Shown here: positions 1 to 10,678 of the stretch, piece after piece
Layout of the letters: each line of letters starts with the position of its first letter
Position numbering within the stretch: position 1 is the stretch's first letter
Assembly (NCBI GenBank): GCA_021775195.1
Contig: JAJFIG010000044.1
Location: 1 to 10,678 of the forward strand
Reading direction: 5' to 3'
Origin: Rhodospirillales bacterium
GTDB taxonomy: Bacteria > Pseudomonadota > Alphaproteobacteria > Rhodospirillales > 2-02-FULL-58-16
Length of the DNA: 10,678 bases
Notes under the pieces: model-generated
What the model was told of the DNA's origin: nothing
Databases searched by the model: none
What the model saw: the letters and a program-made list of their open reading frames with translations, nothing else
Translations under genes and position numbers: made by a program

Positions 1-1608
1 CAGCGCCTCGTGGGCGCCGTCCAGGCGGTAGTCGGTCCGGGCGTTGTGGTCGAAGCGCCAAAGCGTCCAGCCGTTGGGGTTGTGACAGGTGGCGCATTTG
101 GCGCCGAGGGTTTGGCGATGAACGTCGCCGTCCTTGTGACAGGCGGCGCAGTCGAGACGTGTATCCTTGTAGGCGCCGCTCAGGTGGCATTCCTCGCAGG
201 GGACAACGGCGTGCAGGCCGACGAGGGGAAAGCGGGTCAGGTCGTGGTCGAAGAAGACCTTGGTCTTCCAGCCCGCTTCGTTGTGGCAGCGCTGGCAGGT
301 TTTGCCTTCCTGCCCGGCGTGCACGTCGTTTTTCTTGTGGCACCCGTAGCAGGCCGTTTCCGGTTTCTTCTTGTAGAACGGGTCCCGGTGACAGGCCGCG
401 CACTTGACCTTCGGATGCTTGCCGCGAAGACGGAACCTAGTGTGTTTGTCGTGATCGAAGGTCACCTTCTTCCACTCGGCGGCGGTGTGACAGGCTTCGC
501 ACTTGGACCCGTTCACGCCCCTGTGGGTGTCGTCGGGCCGGTGACAGGCATTGCACTCGGTCTTCAGTTTCTGCTTGTCGACCGGGCCTTTGTGACAGGC
601 CACGCAGATGGCCTTGGCATGGCGCCCCCGAAGGGGGAACTTGGTGCGCTTGGTATGGTCGAAGTTGACCTTCTCCCAGCCGGCGATGGTATGGCAGCTT
701 TCGCATTTGGGGCCGTTGCGCCCCTTGTGCTGGTCGTCGCGCTGGTGGCAGGCAAGACACCGGGTATCGAGTTTCACGCCGTATAGGGCCCCGGGATGAC
801 AGGCGTCGCAGGTGACCGTGCGGTGCTTGTCGGTCAACCGGTACTTGGTATCCCGGTCGTGGGAAAATGTGACCTTCTTCCACTCCTTGGTCGTGTGGCA
901 GCCCTCGCATTTCTGGCTGTAGCGGCCGGCGTGGGCGTCGTTCAGCCGGTGACAGGAGAAACAGTCCTTGGGCGTCGGCTTGTAGCGCTCGTTGGGATGG
1001 CAGGCCTTGCAGGAAACCTCACGGTGCTTTTCGATCAGGGGGAACTTGGTCTTGGCATGATCGAAACGGCCGCGCCGCCAGGTGCGTTCGCTGTGACAGT
1101 CGCGGCAGGCCTCGCCGAGGCGGCCCTTGTGGGGCTCGTCCTTCCTGTGGCAGCCGATGCAGAGAGGCGGCGCGTCGCGGTGCTTGGCCTTCGGCTTGTG
1201 ACAGCCGGCGCAGGCGACCTTGACGTGAGCGTCCTTGAGGACAAAGTCCGTCTCCGCGTGGTCGAAGGTATCCTGGTCCAGTCCGACGATGTCGGCCTTC
1301 CGGCCCTTGTGATCGGTGTGACAATGCTTGCACTCGACGGTCCGGATGTCCTGGCGGCGGCCGTGAAAGCCGACTTTTCCGGTCACGTCCGCCGCCACCT
1401 TCTTGTGGCAGGCAAGGCAGAGCTGGCGTTGCTTTTCCTTGCTGAACGGTTCGTGGCACTTGTCACAGGTCCCCTCGTGCTCGGCATGACCCTGGACCAG
1501 GGGGCCGGGCATGACCAATTGCTCAAGTGTCGTCGCCGCGACGGTGGCGGGATACGACCAACTAGATATGACGGCTGTCACGACCAGCACTCCGATGCGT
1601 TTCCACAT
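1..1608 (-). CDS. Secreted multiheme c-type cytochrome with at least 21 hemes (C-terminus outside window)
   Basis: The minus-strand frame is open from ATG at 1608 to base 1 without a stop: 536 residues, C-terminus missing. A Sec signal peptide covers about residues 1-25, with AxA-type cleavage near ATVAA. I count 21 CXXCH heme-binding motifs, first Cys at residues 48, 64, 93, 133, 150, 168, 200, 216, 234, 267, 284, 302, 335, 352, 370, 403, 420, 438, 471, 487 and 505. From about residue 115 the protein is a tandem repeat of about 67 residues. Each unit has three CXXCH plus three further conserved His (FDH, the H before the next heme, and D-x-H-x-G), enough for bis-His ligation of every heme. 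This is cytochrome c3-like multiheme architecture; the role would be periplasmic or extracellular electron transfer. A G-rich stretch precedes the ATG. It lies 21 bp behind the cytochrome b-like gene, so they are probably one operon. Electron donor and acceptor cannot be read from the sequence. Confidence 0.95.
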   Translation of the reverse strand, partial: MWKRIGVLVVTAVISSWSYPATVAATTLEQLVMPGPLVQGHAEHEGTCDKCHEPFSKEKQRQLCLACHKKVAADVTGKVGFHGRRQDIRTVECKHCHTDHKGRKADIVGLDQDTFDHAETDFVLKDAHVKVACAGCHKPKAKHRDAPPLCIGCHRKDEPHKGRLGEACRDCHSERTWRRGRFDHAKTKFPLIEKHREVSCKACHPNERYKPTPKDCFSCHRLNDAHAGRYSQKCEGCHTTKEWKKVTFSHDRDTKYRLTDKHRTVTCDACHPGALYGVKLDTRCLACHQRDDQHKGRNGPKCESCHTIAGWEKVNFDHTKRTKFPLRGRHAKAICVACHKGPVDKQKLKTECNACHRPDDTHRGVNGSKCEACHTAAEWKKVTFDHDKHTRFRLRGKHPKVKCAACHRDPFYKKKPETACYGCHKKNDVHAGQEGKTCQRCHNEAGWKTKVFFDHDLTRFPLVGLHAVVPCEECHLSGAYKDTRLDCAACHKDGDVHRQTLGAKCATCHNPNGWTLWRFDHNARTDYRLDGAHEAL

Positions 1609-1629
1609 GGCCCCCCCATCCGCCGGCGA

Positions 1630-2592
1630 TCAGTAGAGGTGCACGGCAAGGACATGGACCACGCCCGATATCAGGAGCATGAAAAACAGCGGCAGGTGCA
1701 GCACGTGCCAGAGCGCGAACAGGCGCTCGTAGAAACTGAACTCGGCAACCTTGCGCACCCCCGCCAGATAAGCCGAAACGTAGCGGCGTGCCGCCTTTTC
1801 CTGGCGCCGGCGTTCATCGGCCGTCCAGCCGGCCCGCCGCGCGGTCACCCGGAAGGCACGGCGCAATCCGGCGCGCAGGGCGTAGCGCATCCACCAGGTC
1901 CTTACGCCCGTGGTGAAGAGACGGCCCATGCCGTGGACGACGCTCGGGGGGCGGGACAGCACCTCCGCCTCGAAGGTCCGCAGCCGCTCCCTCAGCGCCG
2001 GCGCATAGCGAAACACGGTTCCCAGACGGGTCCGGTCGGTCTCGGTTTCCTCTTCCAGATCCCGAAGACTGGCGCGGCGGCCAAAGAGGCCGTGGTGGAT
2101 CCTGGAATAGAAGTAGCGTCCGATCAGGCCGCTTCCAGCGACCAGCAGCATGGCGATCAGGGCGACGCTGCTGTTCATGGAGCCGAGCTTGAAGTTGGCG
2201 TGAAACAGGATCAGGACGGGCCCGGCGATGCCGAACACCATGTGGGCCCGGAACCAGTGCCGTACCGGCCCCAGGGCGCGCATGAACCGCGTCTTCTTGC
2301 GCAGCGGGTAAAGCAACAGCAGAACCATCAGGACGCCGCCGACGATCCCCAGCGCGTACCCCAGCCCCGACTCCGCGGTCAGCAATTCGGCGCCGCGGAT
2401 ACGCCAGCCGCCATAAAGGGCAATGCCGACCAGGGTCAGGAAAACCGGGGCATGAAAGCCTGCCTTCCTGCGCGCCGGCGCGGGCGAGGCGGCTTCGGAC
2501 GTGCCTTGATCTCGGGGCCGCGGCGCGGCACTGGTCGCTGAGGCCCCGATCGTATTGTCGACGACGGCCCCCGCGGCGGAAGCGGTGTTCAT
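1630..2592 (-). CDS. Cytochrome b-like integral membrane protein (putative di-heme b)
   Basis: This is a 320-residue membrane protein. A Pro/Ala-rich N-terminal tail (1-45) is followed by hydrophobic segments at about 47-65, 77-98, 114-133, 142-162 and 288-320. A hydrophilic, Arg-rich region (about 165-285) separates segments four and five. Segment three carries H117 and H131, and segment five carries H299 and H313. Both pairs are H-x13-H, the spacing by which transmembrane helices of cytochrome b proteins hold two hemes on opposite membrane faces. H112, H166, H167, H296 and H318 are extra candidates. This fits a quinol- or flavoprotein-linked cytochrome b561/ferric-reductase-like protein that passes electrons across the inner membrane. 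The exact family is not recognised with certainty. It is first in the leftward unit, and its stop lies 21 bp before the multiheme cytochrome gene, the obvious periplasmic partner. ATG 2592 was chosen; the transcript reads CGAAGAGCC shortly upstream, a weak ribosome site. Confidence 0.85.
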   Translation of the reverse strand: MNTASAAGAVVDNTIGASATSAAPRPRDQGTSEAASPAPARRKAGFHAPVFLTLVGIALYGGWRIRGAELLTAESGLGYALGIVGGVLMVLLLLYPLRKKTRFMRALGPVRHWFRAHMVFGIAGPVLILFHANFKLGSMNSSVALIAMLLVAGSGLIGRYFYSRIHHGLFGRRASLRDLEEETETDRTRLGTVFRYAPALRERLRTFEAEVLSRPPSVVHGMGRLFTTGVRTWWMRYALRAGLRRAFRVTARRAGWTADERRRQEKAARRYVSAYLAGVRKVAEFSFYERLFALWHVLHLPLFFMLLISGVVHVLAVHLY

Positions 2593-3062
2593 GGCATGGC
2601 TCTTCGGTTGAAAACCAGTATTGTCAAATAATCGTCTCGCATGCGCCCACTCCCAGATTTTCGCGCGACCCCGGCGTATACGGGATGTCCCCTATATTGA
2701 TCAGCGGGAATATCACGCCGAAACGCCGGTCCGTGGTTGTGACATTTCTGTGTGAAGTCTCTTGCATTACCGTGAATTGATGGCCAAGACCCTTCTCGCC
2801 GTGGCATAATTTTCCAAACTTGTCCTGTCGTGAGCTTCTCCAGCTTCGGTATGCGGGGCCAGAATTTTAGGGGGCTGGAAACCGAAAATTATTAAATAAC
2901 AACGTGGTAATAAATTCGGTTAACCATATTCGTTGTGTCACAATGGACGAAGATTTCTTGTTATCCTAATATTTTATTTTAGTTAAAATAGTACCTATAA
3001 ATTTAACTAATTTATTACTTAATTTTTTAGTTATGTTTCTTTGAAGCGGAGGCGGCTTCCAA
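2593..3062. promoter_or_regulatory. Shared divergent control region, AT-rich on the tlpA-like side
   Basis: This 470-bp stretch lies between the starts of the leftward cytochrome unit and the rightward thioredoxin gene and holds no convincing gene. Bases 2961-3040 contain only 11 G or C in 80 (14% GC), against roughly two thirds GC in the flanking genes. Visible symmetric elements are GGTTAACC (2918-2925), TTGTGTCACAA (2933-2943) and a 9-bp inverted repeat TTAGTTAAA/TTTAACTAA (2979-2987 and 3002-3010). They could be operators, but no known regulator consensus is matched. Promoters for both directions must lie here; I cannot single out a -35/-10 pair with confidence. GGAGG at 3048-3052 is the ribosome site of the rightward gene. 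Confidence 0.6.
2979..3010. repeat. 9-bp perfect inverted repeat in the divergent promoter region
   Basis: TTAGTTAAA at 2979-2987 and its exact complement TTTAACTAA at 3002-3010 are separated by 14 bases. A related half, TTTTAGTTA, recurs at about 3026-3034. It lies 53-84 bp upstream of the thioredoxin-like start, a plausible operator position. In such AT-rich sequence a 9-bp match could also arise by chance. Confidence 0.4.
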
Positions 3063-3707
3063 ATGGCGGTTACCAAGGCGGGCGCGAGGGTGAAAAAGCA
3101 AGTCAAGGACCGGCATCGGCCCCGATTCGTTCGCTGGACGGTTGGATTTCTTATTTCGGCGGCACTGGTGTCGGCCGTGGCGGCCCTGATCGCCGTGCCA
3201 CCGGCCGATGCCTACCACGAGGCAACCGAGCCGTCGGACGGCACGGTGAAAAGCTTCATCAAAGTGTGGCCGCCGGTCCAACCCCCCGCTTTCGATTTCC
3301 GGGACGGCGACGGCAATATCCTCGACCTGACCCGGTTCCGGGGCAAGGTCGTGCTCTTGAACATCTGGGCCACGTGGTGCCCGCCCTGCCTCAGGGAGAT
3401 GCCGGCCCTGGACCGCCTGCAGGCCCGTCTCGGCACGGAGGACGTCGTCGTGGTGCCGCTTTCCATCGACCGCGACGGCCGGCCCGTGGTCTCCCGCTAT
3501 TACACCCGGCTGGGGTTGCGCCACCTGGGCATCTACCTCGACCCCGTCAAGGCGTCGGGAAAGGGCTTCCCCATCGATGTCCTGCCCGCCTCCTTCATCC
3601 TCGACAGGGAGGGAAACATGGTCAGCTTCCTGCGCAGTTTCGTCGATTGGGACGCCCCGGAAGCGGTTGTGATGTTGCGCGATTACGCCGCCCGGGCAGC
3701 AAAATGA
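3063..3707 (+). CDS. TlpA/ResA-like membrane-tethered or exported thioredoxin
   Basis: This 214-residue protein has a basic N-terminus (1-24), one hydrophobic segment (about 25-48, ending PPADA, which could be cleaved or remain as an anchor) and a thioredoxin-fold domain (about 70-210). The active site is W105-C106-P107-P108-C109 within the NIWATWCPPCLREMP context typical of TlpA/ResA/CcmG-type proteins. The cis-proline is probably P175 in VLPASFILD. Such proteins work in the periplasm and usually reduce disulfides, including those of apocytochrome c CXXCH sites before heme attachment. Sitting divergent to a cytochrome with over 40 heme-ligating cysteines, it may serve that maturation (inference). 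GGAGG at 3048-3052 lies 10 bases before the ATG. AT-rich DNA flanks the gene on both sides, while the gene itself is GC-rich like its neighbours. Confidence 0.9.
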   Translation: MAVTKAGARVKKQVKDRHRPRFVRWTVGFLISAALVSAVAALIAVPPADAYHEATEPSDGTVKSFIKVWPPVQPPAFDFRDGDGNILDLTRFRGKVVLLNIWATWCPPCLREMPALDRLQARLGTEDVVVVPLSIDRDGRPVVSRYYTRLGLRHLGIYLDPVKASGKGFPIDVLPASFILDREGNMVSFLRSFVDWDAPEAVVMLRDYAARAAK

Positions 3708-3842
3708 GCACATATCCTAAATAAATTTATATAGTATTTAATAAAATTAAAATATTACGAGAAATAAACGGCCTGTGTTATTAACCGGCGCAATGAATAA
3801 CCGACACCATAGGGAAGCTTTGCGTCAATACGGGATTCTGGG
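3708..3842. other. AT-rich spacer between the thioredoxin-like and flavoprotein genes
   Basis: These 135 bp hold no gene. Bases 3711-3770 have 9 G or C in 60 (15% GC). A short inverted repeat GTTATT/AATAAC with a 13-base loop lies near 3777-3801. No GC-rich stem followed by a T-run is present, so no intrinsic terminator is evident. The spacer may carry a second promoter for the flavoprotein gene, or simply be read through from the gene upstream. Confidence 0.45.
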
Positions 3843-5153
3843 ATGTTAGCGCCCTCGACCCTCACCCTACTTGTATATTTTGTTCCCGCCGCCGCGATCC
3901 TGTCCCTTTACATGGGCTTGCGGGCACGGCGGCATCGACGGTCGACGGTGTGGCGGGACGAATCGGTCAACGCCGGACTGACCGAGCCGGCCTCCCTTCA
4001 CCCCATTATCGATCCGAGCCGTTGCATCGGTTCCGGCGCCTGCGTCCAGTCCTGCCCCGAGAACAACGTCCTCGGCCTCATCGACGGCAAGGTCGATCTG
4101 ATCAACCCGACCCATTGCATCGGCCACGGCGCCTGCAAGGCGGCCTGTCCCATGGACGCCATTTCCCTGGTTTTCGGAACCGAGAAGCGGGGCGTCGACA
4201 TCCCCGTCGTCCATCCCAATTTCGAGACCAACGTGCCCGGCCTCTTCATCGCCGGCGAACTGGGGGGCATGGGACTGATCCGCAACGCCATCGAGCAGGG
4301 GCGTCAGGCCCTGGAAGCGATCCGCGATCTCGCCGGCATCGGATCGGGGTCCCAGCTCGACCTGGTGATCGTCGGCGCCGGGCCGGCCGGGTTCTCCGCC
4401 TCCCTGGCGGCGCTGCATCACAAGATGAGCTTCGTCACCGTGGAGCAGGACTCGCTCGGCGGCACCGTCGCCCATTTCCCCCGCGGCAAGGTGGTGATGA
4501 CACAGCCGGCGCATCTGCCGATAGTCGGCAAGACGAAGTTCACCGAGACAACCAAGGAGACGCTGCTCGAATTCTGGCAGGACGTGGAGCAGAAAACCGG
4601 GGTCGAGATCAACTATCACGAACGCATGGAAACCATCACCCGCACGGCCGACGGCTTCGAGGTCAAGACCTCCCGCGACACCTATCGCACCCGGGCGGTG
4701 CTGCTGACCATCGGCCGGCGCGGCACGCCGAGGAAGCTGGGCGTTCCGGGCGAGGATCAGAACAAGGTGGTCTACCGGCTGATCGATCCCGAGCAGTACC
4801 GGGGCCAGCATGTGCTGGTAGTCGGGGGCGGCGACAGCGCGCTCGAGGCGGCGACCAGCATCGCCGCCGAGCCGGGGACCACGGTGTCGATCTCGTACCG
4901 CAGCGAGGCCTTCAGCCGGGCCAAGGAAAAGAACCGCCAGAAGATCAAGGACGCGGAAGCCGAGGGCCGTCTCAAGGTGCTGATGAAATCCGCCATCAAG
5001 CAGATCACCCCGACCCATGTCGAAATCGAGTGGGAGGACCAGATGCTCGAGTTCGAAAACGACGCCACCATCATCAGCGCCGGCGGCATCCTGCCAACGC
5101 CGTTTCTCAAGGAAATCGGCATCATCGTGGAGACCAAACATGGAACGGTGTGA
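3843..5153 (+). CDS. Membrane-anchored ferredoxin/FAD/NAD(P) oxidoreductase with permuted domain order
   Basis: 436 residues. An N-terminal transmembrane segment (about 5-24) followed by RARRHRR predicts a cytoplasmic body. A ferredoxin-like domain (about 52-112) has C61-x5-C67-x3-C71-P and C92-x5-C98-x3-C102-P. The usual second Cys is Ser64 in the first and His95 in the second. Residues 128-162 (NVPGLFIAGEL... RQALEAI) match the segment that normally ends thioredoxin-reductase-like FAD domains. The FAD Rossmann motif GAGPAG (178-183) comes after it, then an NAD(P) motif GGGDSA (328-333). The protein ends at IIVETKHGTV, where that closing segment would normally follow. There is no redox CXXC between the nucleotide motifs, so it is not a thioredoxin reductase. 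It likely moves electrons between NAD(P)H and the FeS centres and on to a membrane carrier; the neighbouring cytochrome b is a candidate. The ribosome site before ATG 3843 is weak (TCTGGG), but this start keeps the membrane anchor. Confidence 0.88.
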   Translation: MLAPSTLTLLVYFVPAAAILSLYMGLRARRHRRSTVWRDESVNAGLTEPASLHPIIDPSRCIGSGACVQSCPENNVLGLIDGKVDLINPTHCIGHGACKAACPMDAISLVFGTEKRGVDIPVVHPNFETNVPGLFIAGELGGMGLIRNAIEQGRQALEAIRDLAGIGSGSQLDLVIVGAGPAGFSASLAALHHKMSFVTVEQDSLGGTVAHFPRGKVVMTQPAHLPIVGKTKFTETTKETLLEFWQDVEQKTGVEINYHERMETITRTADGFEVKTSRDTYRTRAVLLTIGRRGTPRKLGVPGEDQNKVVYRLIDPEQYRGQHVLVVGGGDSALEAATSIAAEPGTTVSISYRSEAFSRAKEKNRQKIKDAEAEGRLKVLMKSAIKQITPTHVEIEWEDQMLEFENDATIISAGGILPTPFLKEIGIIVETKHGTV

Positions 5154-7224
5154 GCAACGGCGCCTCGCCATCGCGCTCCTGGCAGCGGCGGTATTGACCG
5201 GCTCCATCACCCTGCCGGCGGACGCCGGGACGCTGGACGACGCCAAGGCCGCAACCCGGGTGCGCGATTTCGGCCGTGCCGCGACCCTGTTGACGGGTCT
5301 CGCCAAGGCCGGCGAGGCGGAAGCCCAATACCGGCTGGCGAGCCTCTACCGTGGCGGGCGCGGGGTCGCCAAGGATCCGGGGGAAGCGTTCACCTGGATG
5401 CTGAAGGCGGCGCGGCAAGGGCACGTCAAGGCCCAGTACAATCTGGCGGTCATGTACCAGACGGGCGCCGGCGTCACCGCCAGTCTCGCGGAGGCCATGC
5501 AATGGTGCGCCAAGGCGGCGGCGGGGAAACACCCCATGGCCGTTGCCCGGCTGGAACACATGCAGTCCCTGGGCGATCTGGCGGTGGCCTCGGGCCCGGC
5601 GGAGGAAAAAGAACCAACCCAGGTGGCCTCCTTGCCCGCTCCCGCGGCGACTCCGGAAGCCCTGCTCAGGGCCGCCCACAAGGGACGGCGTGACGACATC
5701 GTCAAGCTGCTGGGCAGGAAAGTCGGTGTCAACGACGCCGGCCAATATGGCCGCACGGCGCTGATCGAGGCCGCCGAGCACGGTCACGGTCCCACCGTTT
5801 CGACGTTGATCGCCTACGGCGCCAACGTCGCCGCCCGGGACAATTACGGCGACAGCGCCCTGCTCATCGCCGCGAGCACCGGCAAACCGACCGTGGTCAA
5901 GGCCCTGCTGGCGGCCGGCGCCGATGTGAACGACCGGGATTCCCTCGGCAACACCCCCCTGATGATCGCCGCCGGCAAGGGACATCGCGGGGTTGTGACG
6001 GCCCTGATCGCCGCCGGTGCCGGGGTCAACGAACGGAACCGTGCCGGGCGCACGGCGCTGACCCTGGCCGCCAGGAAGGGACGGATGGAGATCAAGGGCC
6101 TGCTCGTGGCCGGCGGTGCCGACGAGGAGAAAACCGGCGCCAAACCACGGCCCGCTCCGGTGATCACGGCCAAGGATCTGGCAACGCCATCGCCGAACGT
6201 CGCCGAGGCCAACGCCCCCGCCTACGCGGGATGGTCGACGCTGATGGTTGCCGCCTGGCGGGGTCATACGAGCGCCGTGCGGACGCTGGTTGCCAAGGGC
6301 GCCGACCCCAACGTCGCCGACGAGGACGGGCACACGCCGCTGACCCGCGCCGCCTGGAAAGGACATGCCGCGATCGTCGCCGCCCTGCTGACGGCCGGTG
6401 CCGATCCCCGGGTCACGCTGGTAAGTGGAAAGACGGCGGTCATGCTGGCGGCGGAAAAGGGTCATACGGGAACCGTGCGCCGGCTGCTGGACGGCGGCGC
6501 CGACGTCAATGCCCGTCACGCCGGGGCGGGGACGGCCCTGATCGGCGCCGTGCGCGCCGGCCACGGGGAAACCGTCGACCTGCTGTTGAAAGCCGGGGCC
6601 GATACCGGCATGACCGACGGCGACGGCACGTCGCCGCTGATGGCCGCCGCCCGCCTGAACCGGGGTACCATGGCACGGACGCTGCTTGCCACCGGCGCCC
6701 GGGTGGTCGAGCGCGACGGCGACGGACGCACGGCGCTGTGGTTCGCCGCCGACGGGGGTCATGACGATCCGGTGTCGGCGTTGCTCGACCGGAACGCCAA
6801 CCCCAACACGGCGGACGACGCGGGACGCTCGCCCCTGTCACGGGCCGCCGTGCAGGGCCACGCCGGTGTGACGGCGACCTTGATCGCCGCCGGGGCCGAC
6901 GTGCTGGCCCCGAACCGCCTCGGCAACACGCCGCTGATGCTGGCCGCCAGCCGCGGCCATGACGCCGTCGTCGCCCGGCTGCTTGCCGCCGGCGCCGAAA
7001 TCGACACCAAGAACACCACCGGCAATACCGCCCTGATGCTGGCGGCGAAGGGCGGATACGGGGACGTGGTCAAGGCCCTGCTGGACGGCGGCGCCAATCC
7101 GCAGCTTCACAACAAGAAGCGCGAGCGGCCCCACATGCTCGCCGCCGCCCAGGGACACGACGAGGTCGTCGCCATGCTCGAAAGCCACAACGAGGGCAAA
7201 AGCTGGTTGCGGCGGCTGTTCTAG
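5140..7224 (+). CDS. Exported Sel1-repeat plus ankyrin-repeat protein (15 ankyrin units)
   Basis: 694 residues from ATG 5140, chosen because a Sec signal peptide follows (1-29, hydrophobic core IALLAAAVLTG, cleavage after PADA) and GGAG at 5129-5132 lies 7 bases upstream. Residues about 32-135 form Sel1-like/TPR-like helical repeats (AEAQYRLASLYRGGRGVA, then VKAQYNLAVMYQTGAGV). Ankyrin units of 33 residues with G-x-TPL-x-x-AA-x-x-GH signatures follow: five at about 171-335, a Pro/Ala-rich linker (about 336-363), then ten to the C-terminus. No enzymatic motif is seen. Both repeat types bind proteins, so a scaffold or docking role in the periplasm is the simplest reading. The gene overlaps the flavoprotein gene by 14 bp, implying translational coupling and a shared function. 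The next gene converges on it with a 4-base gap. Confidence 0.9.
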   Translation: MERCEQRRLAIALLAAAVLTGSITLPADAGTLDDAKAATRVRDFGRAATLLTGLAKAGEAEAQYRLASLYRGGRGVAKDPGEAFTWMLKAARQGHVKAQYNLAVMYQTGAGVTASLAEAMQWCAKAAAGKHPMAVARLEHMQSLGDLAVASGPAEEKEPTQVASLPAPAATPEALLRAAHKGRRDDIVKLLGRKVGVNDAGQYGRTALIEAAEHGHGPTVSTLIAYGANVAARDNYGDSALLIAASTGKPTVVKALLAAGADVNDRDSLGNTPLMIAAGKGHRGVVTALIAAGAGVNERNRAGRTALTLAARKGRMEIKGLLVAGGADEEKTGAKPRPAPVITAKDLATPSPNVAEANAPAYAGWSTLMVAAWRGHTSAVRTLVAKGADPNVADEDGHTPLTRAAWKGHAAIVAALLTAGADPRVTLVSGKTAVMLAAEKGHTGTVRRLLDGGADVNARHAGAGTALIGAVRAGHGETVDLLLKAGADTGMTDGDGTSPLMAAARLNRGTMARTLLATGARVVERDGDGRTALWFAADGGHDDPVSALLDRNANPNTADDAGRSPLSRAAVQGHAGVTATLIAAGADVLAPNRLGNTPLMLAASRGHDAVVARLLAAGAEIDTKNTTGNTALMLAAKGGYGDVVKALLDGGANPQLHNKKRERPHMLAAAQGHDEVVAMLESHNEGKSWLRRLF

Positions 7225-7228
7225 AGCC

Positions 7229-8833
7229 CTAGACCCCCTTGCGCAGATCCCGGATGATCTCGCCGGCCGCGTTGTGGCCGGGCAGGCCGGTGACGCCGCC
7301 GCCGGGATGGGCACCCGATCCACACATGTAGAGGCCGGCCACCGGGGCCCGGTAATCGGCGTAGCCGGCGGCCGGGCGCAGGGAATAGATCTGATCCAGG
7401 TGCAAGGCGCCGTGGAAGATGTCGCCGCCGGTCATGCCCAGGTCCCGCTCCATGTCGAGGGGCGAGTTGACCTGGCGGGCGATCACCGAGGCGCGGAAGT
7501 TGGGGGCGTAGCCGTCCACGGTGTCGATGATCAGATCGGCGACCCGGTCACGGACGTCGTCCCAGGAACCACCGCCGGGCAGCTCGGGATTGAAATGCTG
7601 GCAGAAGAGGCTGGCGACGTGATGGCCGGGCGGCGCCAGGGTGTCGTCGATGGTCGATGGGATGCACATGGAGACGATGGGCTTTTGCGCCCAGCCGGTG
7701 GCGCGGGCGTCGTCGTGGGCCTGCTGGATGTAATCGAGGGACGGGCAGATGTTGACGGTGCCGTTGAGGCAGCGGGCCGGGTCGTCCATGGACCGAAGCG
7801 CGGTGAAGGCGGGCAGTTCGCTCAAGGCGACGTTGATGCGGAAGGTACCCGAGGCCGAACGCCAATGGTCCATACGGCGGCGGAAGTGGGCCGGCAGCAG
7901 GGCCGGATCGACCATGCGGGTGTAGAGTAGTTTGGGGTTGAGGCTCGAGGCCACGGCGCGGGCGCGGATCACCCGGCCGTCGCCGAGGACGATGCCGGCG
8001 GCGCGGCCATTTTCGGTCAGCACGTCGCGCACCGGGGCCTCGGTCTCGATGTCGGCGCCGGCGGCGGCGGCGGATTTCGCCATCGCCTGGGTGATGGCGC
8101 CCATGCCGCCCCGGGCGTGGCCCCAAGCGCCGGCGTGGCCGTTGACCTCGCCCATCATGTGATGGAGGAGGACGTAGGCGGAGCCGGCCTGGTAGGGGCC
8201 GACGAAATTGCCGATCACCCCTTCGTAGCCGAGGTCGCCCTTGATCGGGGCGCCCTCGAACCACTGATCGAGATAGTCGCCGATGGACATCGTCATCAGT
8301 TCCATCAGGGCCGCCTGCAGGTCGGGGGTCAGCTTGCGCAGCCGGTTGGCGGCATCCAGTACCCCGAGGGCATCGCGCCAGCCACCGCCGACGTTGGGCG
8401 GGGGACGCCGGGCCAGGGCCCGCAGGACGCCGCCGACCTCGGTCAGGCGGCGCTCGAATTCCTCGTAGATATCGGGGTCCTTGTCCGAGAACTTGGCCAG
8501 TTCGCGTTTCATGATCCCGGGGTCGCGGCTGAGCCACAGGTATTCGCCGCCGGGGAGCACGTTGACGCGTCCCGAGGTGCGCTCGATGATGCTGAGCCCA
8601 TGCTTGGCGAGCTCCAGGTCGTCGATGATCTTCCGGTCGAGCAGGCTGACGACGTAGGAATAGACCGAGTTGCGGTAGCCGGGGTGGAACTCCCCGGTGA
8701 TCACGGCGCCGCCGACGATCGGGCGGGCTTCCACCAGTTTCACCGTCAGGCCGGCCTTGGCCAGGTAGGCGGCGCAAACGAGGCCATTGTGCCCGGCGCC
8801 GATGACGGCGACGTCGTAGACGGTGTCGGCCAT
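7229..8833 (-). CDS. PYROXD2/phytoene-desaturase-like FAD-dependent oxidoreductase
   Basis: 534 residues. The N-terminal dinucleotide-binding motif is GAGHNG (12-17), with an acidic residue E35 ending the second strand (VKLVEA), as expected for FAD ribose binding. A C-terminal GGGVTGLPGHNAA stretch (about 511-523) is the second FAD contact typical of the phytoene desaturase/CrtI-like and PYROXD2 group. Length is normal for that group. Substrate is unknown; no carotenoid genes are nearby, so carotenoid desaturation is not supported. The frame is open further upstream to 8998, but ATG 8833 is preferred: the conserved domain begins at once and an AGGA lies 9 bases before it in the transcript. 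It appears transcribed alone; it converges on the ankyrin gene and is divergent from the PEP-CTERM gene. Confidence 0.92.
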   Translation of the reverse strand: MADTVYDVAVIGAGHNGLVCAAYLAKAGLTVKLVEARPIVGGAVITGEFHPGYRNSVYSYVVSLLDRKIIDDLELAKHGLSIIERTSGRVNVLPGGEYLWLSRDPGIMKRELAKFSDKDPDIYEEFERRLTEVGGVLRALARRPPPNVGGGWRDALGVLDAANRLRKLTPDLQAALMELMTMSIGDYLDQWFEGAPIKGDLGYEGVIGNFVGPYQAGSAYVLLHHMMGEVNGHAGAWGHARGGMGAITQAMAKSAAAAGADIETEAPVRDVLTENGRAAGIVLGDGRVIRARAVASSLNPKLLYTRMVDPALLPAHFRRRMDHWRSASGTFRINVALSELPAFTALRSMDDPARCLNGTVNICPSLDYIQQAHDDARATGWAQKPIVSMCIPSTIDDTLAPPGHHVASLFCQHFNPELPGGGSWDDVRDRVADLIIDTVDGYAPNFRASVIARQVNSPLDMERDLGMTGGDIFHGALHLDQIYSLRPAAGYADYRAPVAGLYMCGSGAHPGGGVTGLPGHNAAGEIIRDLRKGV

Positions 8834-8979
8834 GGCGTCTGTTCCTGATTTCCTCCGCCGGCGGGGGTCCCCCGCACCGGACAGCCTACAAGGTGTTGAA
8901 TACGATAGGCCATCCCGGCGTCCATTACATTGGCGAGAGGTGTGTCCTTTGGGTGCCGTCATCCGGCATTCAGGCAGAA

Positions 8980-8998
8980 GTGTCGGGATTGTTTGCAC
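8980..8998 (+). promoter_or_regulatory. Upstream motif copy A (putative PrsR-type activator site)
   Basis: GTGTCGGGATTGTTTGCAC matches the consensus GTGTCGGRATTBYTTRCAS shared by the three sites. Its centre is about 320 bp upstream of the start predicted from the sigma-54 promoter, a normal distance for an enhancer-binding activator. It is also about 150 bp upstream of the divergent flavoprotein gene. The link to PrsR is inferred. Confidence 0.55.
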
Positions 8999-9297: not shown

Positions 9298-9357
9298 GTC
9301 GAATATTTATAAGGTACACGGGAAATGCTGCTACTCAACGAGGGGACGCGTTGTACA

Positions 9358-10338
9358 ATGGCAAGAATAACCAGCAAAATCACAGTTTGTGCACATTTGA
9401 TCATCGCCGCGGGGATGTTGGCGGGCATCACGTCGAAGGCCCATGCGTTCGGGCTCGACGGAGTCGTCAACGGCGCCGCCGAAGGCTACACGGACCAGTA
9501 TAGCGTCGGCTTCCTCCTCGATGACGGCGGCTCGGGCATCCCGGTGAGCGGCGGCCAGCTTTTCATCGGCCGCGATGGTGCCGCCGGCGACATCTACGTC
9601 GGCCTGATCCTTCCCTCCAACCCCAGCCCCAACGGTTTCATCGACAACGTTTATGGCGAGGCGGCATTGAGTCCGGCAAACAATTGGAACAACCCGCCTG
9701 CCTCTATCGTCAACCATCCGTTCGAAAAGCTGCAAAAGAGCGACGGGTGGGAATTTGATCTGAGCATAGGGGGTGGACCTTCCGCATTCGTCGAGGTTGA
9801 TTACCTCGAAGGCGATCAAAAGAACAACATCGTGGCCAACCCGACGGCGATTATTGTGTCGAATGGCGGGGGCGCGCTGGTTGGGGTCGCGAGTTCCCTG
9901 GAATACAACCTGGCCCAGGGCGTGCTTGCCGGGGATGCGGGGTGCGACAGTACGTCCAACGGTGGTGCCGGCTGCAAGTTCGGCGATCAGACAAACTCGC
10001 CTGACCCTGGAAACCTCACGCCGGATGCCAATTGGGAGCAGTCGGTCCAATACGAACTGCGCTTTGCCGGCGGGGCCTTCACGCCGGGGACGACGATCGG
10101 GTTGGCCGATATTTCCAATGCCATCGTGCACGCGTCCCCGAACTTTCAGGATGAAGATAAGAGAGTCAGGGTCCCGTGCCTGGAAGACAGTAACTGCGAG
10201 ACGATGACCGTCAACAATGGTGGCGGTAATAACGGCACCGACGTTCCCGAGCCCGGAACCCTGGCCCTCTTCGGTCTCGGTCTGGCCGGGCTCGCCGTTC
10301 TGCGCCGGCGCCGGCAGCCCGCCCCCGTTCGCCGTTAA
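9358..10338 (+). CDS. Secreted PEP-CTERM sorting-domain protein
   Basis: 326 residues. The N-terminus is a Sec signal peptide (residues 1-30, core LIIAAGMLAG, cleavage after KAHA). The C-terminus is a PEP-CTERM sorting signal: V-P-E-P-G-T at about 296-301, a hydrophobic helix (LALFGLGLAGLAVL), then a basic cluster RRRR. Such signals are recognised by exosortase, which processes the protein at the cell envelope in exopolysaccharide-producing Gram-negatives. The body is acidic, Gly/Asn-rich and has four Cys (two C-x9-C/C-x5-C pairs) but no enzyme motif; its function is not recognised. ATG 9358 is preferred over the in-frame ATG 9325, because GAGGGG (9340-9345) precedes it, the signal peptide then starts normally, and 9325 would lie only about 16 bases from the predicted transcript start. 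Single-gene unit; its stop overlaps the convergent TPR gene. Confidence 0.92.
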   Translation: MARITSKITVCAHLIIAAGMLAGITSKAHAFGLDGVVNGAAEGYTDQYSVGFLLDDGGSGIPVSGGQLFIGRDGAAGDIYVGLILPSNPSPNGFIDNVYGEAALSPANNWNNPPASIVNHPFEKLQKSDGWEFDLSIGGGPSAFVEVDYLEGDQKNNIVANPTAIIVSNGGGALVGVASSLEYNLAQGVLAGDAGCDSTSNGGAGCKFGDQTNSPDPGNLTPDANWEQSVQYELRFAGGAFTPGTTIGLADISNAIVHASPNFQDEDKRVRVPCLEDSNCETMTVNNGGGNNGTDVPEPGTLALFGLGLAGLAVLRRRRQPAPVRR

Positions 10339-10678
10339 CCGCCCTTGAGCCGCCGCAGGAGCGCACGGGCCTCGGCGGCACCATCGAATTTCTTTCCTGA
10401 CTTCAGGACCTGCTCGAGTTCGCGGCGCGCCTCCTTGGCGCGCCCGAGCCGGCTCAACGCCACCGCCAGGTGGTAACGCACCTGCGGCTCCTTCGACGCC
10501 CGGGCGCGGGCGTCGCGCAAGTACTTGAGACCGCGCGCCGCATCCCCCTGCTGGACCAGGATCCATCCCAGGGTATCGATCACCGCCGCCTGACCCGGGG
10601 CCATCTTGTAGGCTTTCTCGGCATAGGGCAGGGCACGCTGGTCACCGGCCCGTTGATAGATCAGGGCCAGGTTGTTGA
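10335..10678 (-). CDS. prsT: TPR-repeat protein, C-terminal part, PrsT-like (N-terminus outside window)
   Basis: The frame is open from the right window edge to TAA at 10337-10335 and gives the last 113 residues of a longer protein. It holds TPR helices: N-N-L-A-L-I-Y-Q... P-Y-A-E-K-A-Y-K, then V-I-D-T-L-G-W-I-L-V-Q-Q-G, then V-R-Y-H-L-A-V-A-L-S-R-L-G. The LNNLA..Y / A.DTLGW / YHLA..L pattern up to the C-terminus is what I recognise from the PEP-CTERM system TPR lipoprotein PrsT. PrsT co-occurs with exosortase, PrsK and PrsR and is thought to act in exopolysaccharide-linked export. Its position beside a PEP-CTERM gene supports this. Only a fraction of the protein is visible, so another large TPR protein is possible. 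It overlaps the convergent PEP-CTERM gene by the four bases TTAA. Confidence 0.72.
   Translation of the reverse strand, partial: NNLALIYQRAGDQRALPYAEKAYKMAPGQAAVIDTLGWILVQQGDAARGLKYLRDARARASKEPQVRYHLAVALSRLGRAKEARRELEQVLKSGKKFDGAAEARALLRRLKGG

Follow-up and report, generated by a model that had tools for sequence, protein, structure and literature searches.

The porin-cytochrome conduit PCC3 was predicted in 2017 from the genomes of iron oxidizers (He et al., PMC5566968). As set out in the PCC3 passages of that paper, it consists of four genes, which encode an inner-membrane protein (IMP), a periplasmic multiheme cytochrome c (MHC), an extracellular MHC, and a porin, and the hosts named are Alpha-, Beta-, and Gammaproteobacteria. 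The IMP signature is a length of ~300 aa, an SGXXG motif, and two W-X3-H-X13-H motifs. With its two bis-His pairs, their X13 spacing, and their position on helices 3 and 5, the IMP was likened to ferric reductase and NADPH oxidase (FRD/NOX), which share these features; in the published model it trades electrons with the quinone pool and resembles quinone-active cytochromes b (PMC5566968). The median heme numbers given there are 21 for the periplasmic and 34 for the extracellular MHC. For Gallionellaceae, the published values are 21, 24, or 27 and 10-35, respectively, and the gene order in Sideroxydans lithotrophicus is IMP, MHC, MHC, and porin (Slit_1446-1449). A 2025 paper still terms PCC3 functionally unverified. 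Here we analyzed a stretch of 10,678 nucleotides from a Rhodospirillales bacterium, hereafter the window, which is a whole contig (C369) of an assembly of 3.27 Mb in 569 contigs, 77.8% complete. Its positions 1-7224 encode five proteins in two divergent units. One unit matches the inner half of PCC3; the other encodes a ferredoxin-flavoprotein (FL) that our sequence comparisons suggest to be a near-constant partner of the IMP and a regular component of PCC3.

A preliminary description of the window had proposed that these five genes form an undescribed membrane-spanning electron-transfer locus. All five are present at the places it gave, with correct gene calls, and its reading as an envelope-spanning electron-transfer locus is upheld. 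It is not undescribed, as the IMP, two MHCs, and porin had already been predicted as PCC3 by He et al. The conduit itself is therefore known, as a prediction, and the parts absent from the PCC3 texts searched are the FL and a Sel1- and ankyrin-repeat protein. Neither is described as a PCC3 neighbor in the texts covered by our term searches (PMC5566968, PMC10734462, PMC12442390, PMC12016527, PMC13386937, PMC11475568, PMC13322032, and PMC9040806), supplementary tables and many journals lying outside the search. A term search of PMC7399161 gave no match, and no paper in the searched full-text literature, outside which preprints and most subscription papers fall, combined PCC3 with ankyrin as whole words. 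According to a table of PMC10734462, 41 of 87 iron oxidizers have a "4Fe-4S ferredoxin iron-sulfur binding domain protein", a number similar to the 42 that have the periplasmic PCC3 cytochrome cluster; this protein may or may not be the FL.

The IMP gene lies at positions 1630-2592 on the minus strand and encodes 320 aa. Its product carries both histidine motifs (W113-H117-H131 and W295-H299-H313) and the sequence SGLIG at residue 154 (S154-G158), which make it a di-heme b-type protein by motif, with two b hemes expected. The related loci used here are the best 80 of 545 found with the IMP alignment, and the locus counts are thus biased towards relatives of the window. Among 81 IMPs (the 80 loci and the window), both W-X3-H-X13-H motifs are kept in 79 and SGXXG in all 81. 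No Pfam or NCBIfam family matched the IMP at E <= 0.01, the ferric-reductase-like domain included, in which it differs from FRD/NOX, and a profile search against PDB sequences gave no match at E <= 1. Because the motifs match the published signature, the gene order in relatives equals that of Slit_1446-1449, and a porin and an MHC are encoded elsewhere in the genome, on contig C127, we identify this protein, on sequence grounds, as the PCC3 IMP. The positive-inside pattern predicts a cytoplasmic location for its N-terminus and for the long segment that separates helices 4 and 5. The names of the IMP-locus records include Nitrospinaceae, Nitrospirae/Nitrospirota, "Deltaproteobacteria", Omnitrophota, and one Rhodospirillales locus (L010), in addition to a Bacteroidota plasmid; judged by name, some hosts are presumably related to oxidizers of iron, sulfur, and nitrite.

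The FL gene is present in 73 of the 80 IMP loci and elsewhere in the genome for five of the other seven, so that the two divergent units belong together, as the preliminary description had supposed. IMP and FL lie on opposite strands in 51 of the 73 loci having both. We then searched the same genome sets, which overlap and two of which include the genome of the window, with IMP and FL profiles. Among 321 genomes of the class of G246, 38 contain an IMP, 39 an FL, and 37 both; the IMP stands alone in G481, and the FL in G393 (partial match) and G468 (72% complete). In the class of the window itself (337 genomes), IMP and FL are found in the same three genomes, and in a phylum sample of 299 genomes the strong matches to both fall in the same four. 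One of the four genomes in the order of G042 has both. Copy numbers match as well, with two IMPs and two FLs each in G331, G334, G396, G586, and G603. In addition, the tree distances of IMP and FL are correlated (r 0.62 over 69 pairs; the largest value in 1000 permutations was 0.22). For the same 43 porin-bearing loci, the correlation is 0.71 between IMP and FL versus 0.34 between IMP and porin and 0.36 between FL and porin. Co-occurrence across genomes had been set beforehand as one refutation test for this locus, and four of the five genes survived it: recurrence in related loci exceeds chance for four of the five genes, the TlpA-like gene being mostly absent.

A distant example comes from plasmid pEMTOL02 of Emticicia oligotrophica DSM 17448 (Bacteroidota), the single plasmid record retrieved with the IMP query and also the single one retrieved with the FL query. 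One strand encodes, in this order, CcsA, an IMP-like protein with both motifs, an FL, proteins with 23 and 40 CXXCH motifs, and a 538-aa protein that has no Pfam family and sits in the place of the porin. The FL gene thus lies between the IMP and cytochrome genes. Identity to the window protein is 47.2% for the FL (98% of the query covered) and 21.6% for the IMP (69%). Since the FL is more conserved than the IMP here, it can serve as a marker in the search for related systems in remote phyla. The gene table for the displayed 25 kb is possibly incomplete; it lists neither an ankyrin nor a TlpA gene.

Several observations weigh against a strict partnership of the two proteins. No FL was found at E <= 1e-40 in the IMP-containing genomes G606 and G612. 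Loci L027 and L071 combine IMP and MHC, with no FL in the genome at this threshold, and L027 is a chromosome record of 2.5 Mb (Nitrospinaceae, G606). G481 has a weaker IMP match (1.4e-44) and no FL. Among the 39 FL genomes, a single stop interrupts the FL of G332, and the matches in G364 and G393 are only partial. The cut-offs for the searches of 321 and 337 genomes were picked after a score gap had been seen in the search of 299 genomes. That sample contains 14 genomes with IMP and 11 with FL matches in total; we set aside as other families ten weak IMP-like genomes (partial matches, E 1.5e-15 to 4.0e-11) and seven partial FL-like ones (E 3.6e-57 to 6.1e-42). G259 is on both of these weak lists, with its IMP-like and FL-like matches ~101 kb apart. 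The genome samples overlap and are phylogenetically non-independent, and the correlation of IMP and FL distances partly reflects shared species history. No IMP-FL fusion was seen among the 120 matches listed of the IMP search, nor of the FL search. Finally, a search for similar folds, run with the IMP model, was uninformative, its top matches being an ABC transporter of the peptide-loading complex and sensor domains.

The FL gene (positions 3843-5153, plus strand) encodes a protein with Fer4_10 and Pyr_redox_3 domains and, in a structural model, an N-terminal helix at residues 4-43 that is predicted to anchor it in the membrane. Its flavin domain is that of a circularly permuted relative of YpdA and thioredoxin reductase (TrxR): the C-terminal segment of these proteins has been moved in front of the first, FAD-binding Rossmann fold, where it forms residues 111-168 (positions 4173-4346). 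When the canonical order was restored, the best PDB match spanned chain residues 6-316 with 81.7 bits, compared with 6-274 and 71.8 bits for the protein as it is; there was no gain for a few weaker matches (4zn0 and 3r9u). Two iron-sulfur motifs are encoded at positions 4023-4148, C61-x5-C67-x3-C71-P and C92-xx-H95-xx-C98-xxx-C102-P. His95 is invariant in 32 aligned rows, and CxxHxxCxxxCP is found in all 70 FLs of at least 380 aa (loci and window). The second Cys of the first motif is more variable, with C in 59 of these proteins, S in six (Ser64 in the window), and the pattern unmatched in five. The glycine motif for FAD (G178, G180, P181, and G183) is invariant in the 32 rows, and the dinucleotide motif GGGD(S/A)ALE is present in 64 of 70. 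An alignment places arginines of the FL opposite the HRR..R stretch in a TrxR-like protein. As we take this stretch to have an NADPH-binding role, the alignment suggests NADPH rather than NADH as the partner.

TrxR has a redox-active cysteine pair in its NADPH domain. The FL of the window has no cysteine after residue 102 and hence no such pair, and a thioredoxin-type reductase was rejected on these grounds. It also differs from TrxR and the bacillithiol disulfide reductase YpdA/Bdr (PDB 7a76 and 7a7b) by the circular permutation, the N-terminal helix, and the two-motif ferredoxin domain. In the phylum sample, the next-best relatives of the flavin domain of the FL include an 836-aa protein with flavin, cNMP-binding, and iron-sulfur parts in L158 (830 aa in L159). 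The L158 protein is related to the FL (blastp 1.3e-39) and has a homologous FETxVPGLxxxG segment. However, in the L158 and L159 proteins, the YpdA-like flavin domain is in canonical order, the iron-sulfur sites are C-terminal, and cNMP-binding domains are present.

The cytochrome gene begins 21 bp after the IMP gene and runs to the contig end without a stop codon (positions 1-1608, minus strand). The visible 536 aa start with an N-terminus that, by eye, resembles a signal peptide, and they contain 21 CXXCH motifs. The preliminary description had spoken of over 21 hemes, and although only 21 motifs are seen, an alignment with six relatives shows that the sequence ends just short of three more hemes and the C-terminus; ~24 hemes are therefore expected, and a cytochrome with exactly 21 was dropped as a candidate. 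An MHC gene starts <=400 bp after the IMP gene in 77 of the 80 loci, and the contigs of the other three end within ~420 bp. The number of CXXCH motifs in 70 complete counterparts is 21 in 50, 18 in seven, 24 in seven, 27 in three, and 22, 23, or 33 in one each. We consider the window protein a periplasmic-type PCC3 MHC, its location being predicted. MtrCAB and MtoAB, like PCC3, combine a porin with multiheme cytochromes across the outer membrane, but the window cytochrome is not of their decaheme DmsE/MtrA type, a candidate rejected at 16.5 bits for TIGR03508 (cut-off 192.2).

No porin lies in the window, as the preliminary description had remarked, and it had considered the outer-membrane step explicable only by sequence left of base 1. 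With a profile built from the porin-type neighbors of 12 related loci, a porin-type protein of 727 aa ending in phenylalanine was found on C127 (4151 bp) of the same genome, at positions 1757-3940 (E 3.4e-237). C127 starts inside a multiheme cytochrome, of which the last 420 aa are visible with 16 CXXCH motifs and an MtrC/MtrF-like domain (1.1e-11), and continues with a 165-aa protein, to which the N-terminal portion of the porin profile matches, and the porin. This order is that of the relatives, and the overlapping gene ends suggest one transcript. No exact overlap of 15-199 bases joins the ends of C127 and C369 when the two are oriented as expected, and their adjacency is thus inferred from the relatives, in which the IMP and the first MHC usually have a second MHC and a porin-type protein downstream. 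The porin profile matches 44 of the 80 loci; where 8 kb or more of downstream sequence is available, the fraction is 34 of 39. Eight of the 36 loci without a match were checked, and a porin was found elsewhere in the genome for seven. The missing outer-membrane step would be supplied by the PCC3-type porin and the second, predicted extracellular-type MHC of C127.

Overall, the window shares the IMP type and the periplasmic MHC with PCC3, and its relatives share the predicted extracellular-type MHC, the porin, and the gene order. The published PCC3 has four genes and a quinone model, whereas here the FL is near-constant, the Sel1-ankyrin protein is frequent, and a gene for a small protein is often found ahead of the porin gene. 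In L100, such a small protein (1263-1760) stands between the second MHC and the porin, has no Pfam family, and is matched by the N-terminal portion of the porin profile; open reading frames are found at the same place in L010, L011, L015, L052, and L053. An alphaproteobacterial variant (L062, L070, L076, L077, L078, and L087) consists of an 18-heme MHC, IMP, FL, and ankyrin protein, with no porin match in the locus and a porin elsewhere in five of the six genomes.

Taking these results together, it is likely that the locus is a PCC3-type conduit with its outer half on another contig and with the FL as a regular part that would exchange electrons between NADPH or ferredoxin and the IMP. The chain put forward in the preliminary description, from NAD(P)H or ferredoxin through the iron-sulfur flavoprotein and the cytochrome b to a heme wire, is supported by both the co-occurrence and the anatomy of the proteins. 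Electrons from NADPH, or from reduced ferredoxin, in the cytoplasm would enter the FAD and the two iron-sulfur sites of the membrane-anchored FL, which would bind the IMP from the cytoplasmic side and exchange electrons with its inner b heme. The two b hemes would then carry them across the inner membrane, the outer one serving the periplasmic MHC, from which they could pass through the porin and the second, extracellular-type MHC to a substrate outside. Outward flow from NADPH to an extracellular acceptor would be downhill, with the membrane potential as an aid; the inward route to NADP+ would be uphill and would need a very-low-potential donor or an energy input. The quinone route of the published model and the FL route may both operate. 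A bolder version is possible but more tentative, namely that PCC3 is quinone-independent and that FL and IMP form a split NOX-like transmembrane dehydrogenase tying NADPH or ferredoxin to dozens of hemes. Unlike in FRD/NOX, the proposed dehydrogenase would be a separate protein rather than fused to the membrane domain. If so, it would rely on the circularly permuted flavin domain together with the iron-sulfur motif that includes a histidine, and, if run inward with low-potential donors, it could allow autotrophs to make NADPH without complex I.

The best-placed alternative is PCC3 as published, in which the IMP exchanges electrons with quinones and the FL is linked but functionally separate, or only a secondary feeder. 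This is the existing hypothesis, it draws on the resemblance of the IMP to quinone-active cytochromes b in the published account, and it would accommodate the two genomes with an IMP but no FL and the third with a weaker IMP and no FL. We nevertheless find it unlikely, as it leaves unaccounted for the near-equal presence of the two proteins (37 shared, of 38 and 39), their matched copy numbers in five genomes, their correlated divergence, and the position of the FL gene between the IMP and MHC genes in Emticicia. It would be more surprising still if the FL were a TrxR-like enzyme of thiol redox or cytochrome maturation that supplies reductant via TlpA to apocytochrome cysteines. Its kinship with TrxR and YpdA, the TlpA-like gene adjoining it in the window, the CcmI/CycH-like cluster genes in 29 of the 80 loci, and CcsA in Emticicia fit this idea, but the window FL lacks the TrxR cysteine pair and has iron-sulfur motifs instead, and TlpA-like genes occur in only 11 of the 80 loci. 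That the two units are chance neighbors, as their divergent transcription and the TlpA gene between them might suggest, is contradicted by the co-occurrence counts and the linkage and can be given hardly any weight.

From a biological perspective, PCC3 is spread over many lineages, is functionally unverified, and has a published model that, in the texts searched, stops at the quinone pool. If the wire instead has a near-constant flavoprotein partner in the cytoplasm, the energy bookkeeping would be altered, with exchange at about the potential of NADPH. The FL may plug the PCC3 wire directly into the NADPH of the cell, and it makes the inner-membrane role of PCC3 directly testable.

The remaining genes of the two units are more variable. 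The Sel1-ankyrin gene (plus strand, likely start 5140, end 7224; 694 aa) overlaps the end of the FL gene by 14 nt and adjoins it in 57 of the 73 FL-holding loci. Its product is predicted to be secreted to the periplasm; in most listed cases, the N-terminus is hydrophobic and signal-like, several exceptions being contig-edge or split reading frames. It appears to be an exported, common, and non-essential member, probably a periplasmic assembly or protective partner. Between the two units, an intergenic region (2593-3062) that is AT-rich towards the TlpA gene precedes the gene for a TlpA/ResA-like thiol-disulfide oxidoreductase (3063-3707, plus strand; Redoxin/AhpC-TSA, WCPPC, and an N-terminal hydrophobic segment). 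The preliminary description had counted this gene as a regular part, which its presence in 11 of 80 loci rules out; the protein is an occasional member that probably serves cytochrome maturation. The CcmI/CycH-like cluster, of which one member was scanned (PF23914 at 2.4e-29), probably also represents cytochrome maturation helpers. A recurrent gene pair, DUF6502 and DUF5666 with one member scanned per cluster, lies near the PCC3 loci L026, L040, L041, L049, L073, L075, L079, and L080.

Some IMPs are N-terminally extended (P0006, P0021, and P0092, with Pfam TPR), and long IMP reading frames occur in L011, L016, L017, and L018. Some of these extensions carry TPR repeats, and the topology predicted for the IMP would place the extensions in the cytoplasm. 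Weak IMP-like proteins in L160, L161, and L162 adjoin proteins with 6, 7, and 8 CXXCH motifs, respectively, and these are perhaps the smaller IMP-MHC pairs also mentioned by He et al. (PMC5566968). To the right of the locus, positions 7229-8998 (minus strand) encode a CrtO/phytoene-desaturase-like FAD oxidoreductase (NCBIfam CrtO 263.6 bits, cut-off 1000), with which no reading frame of the 80 related loci clustered (blastp E 1e-10). At the right end (9325-10676), a gene for a PEP-CTERM surface protein is convergent with a fragment of a PrsT-type TPR protein gene, both of the exosortase sorting system.

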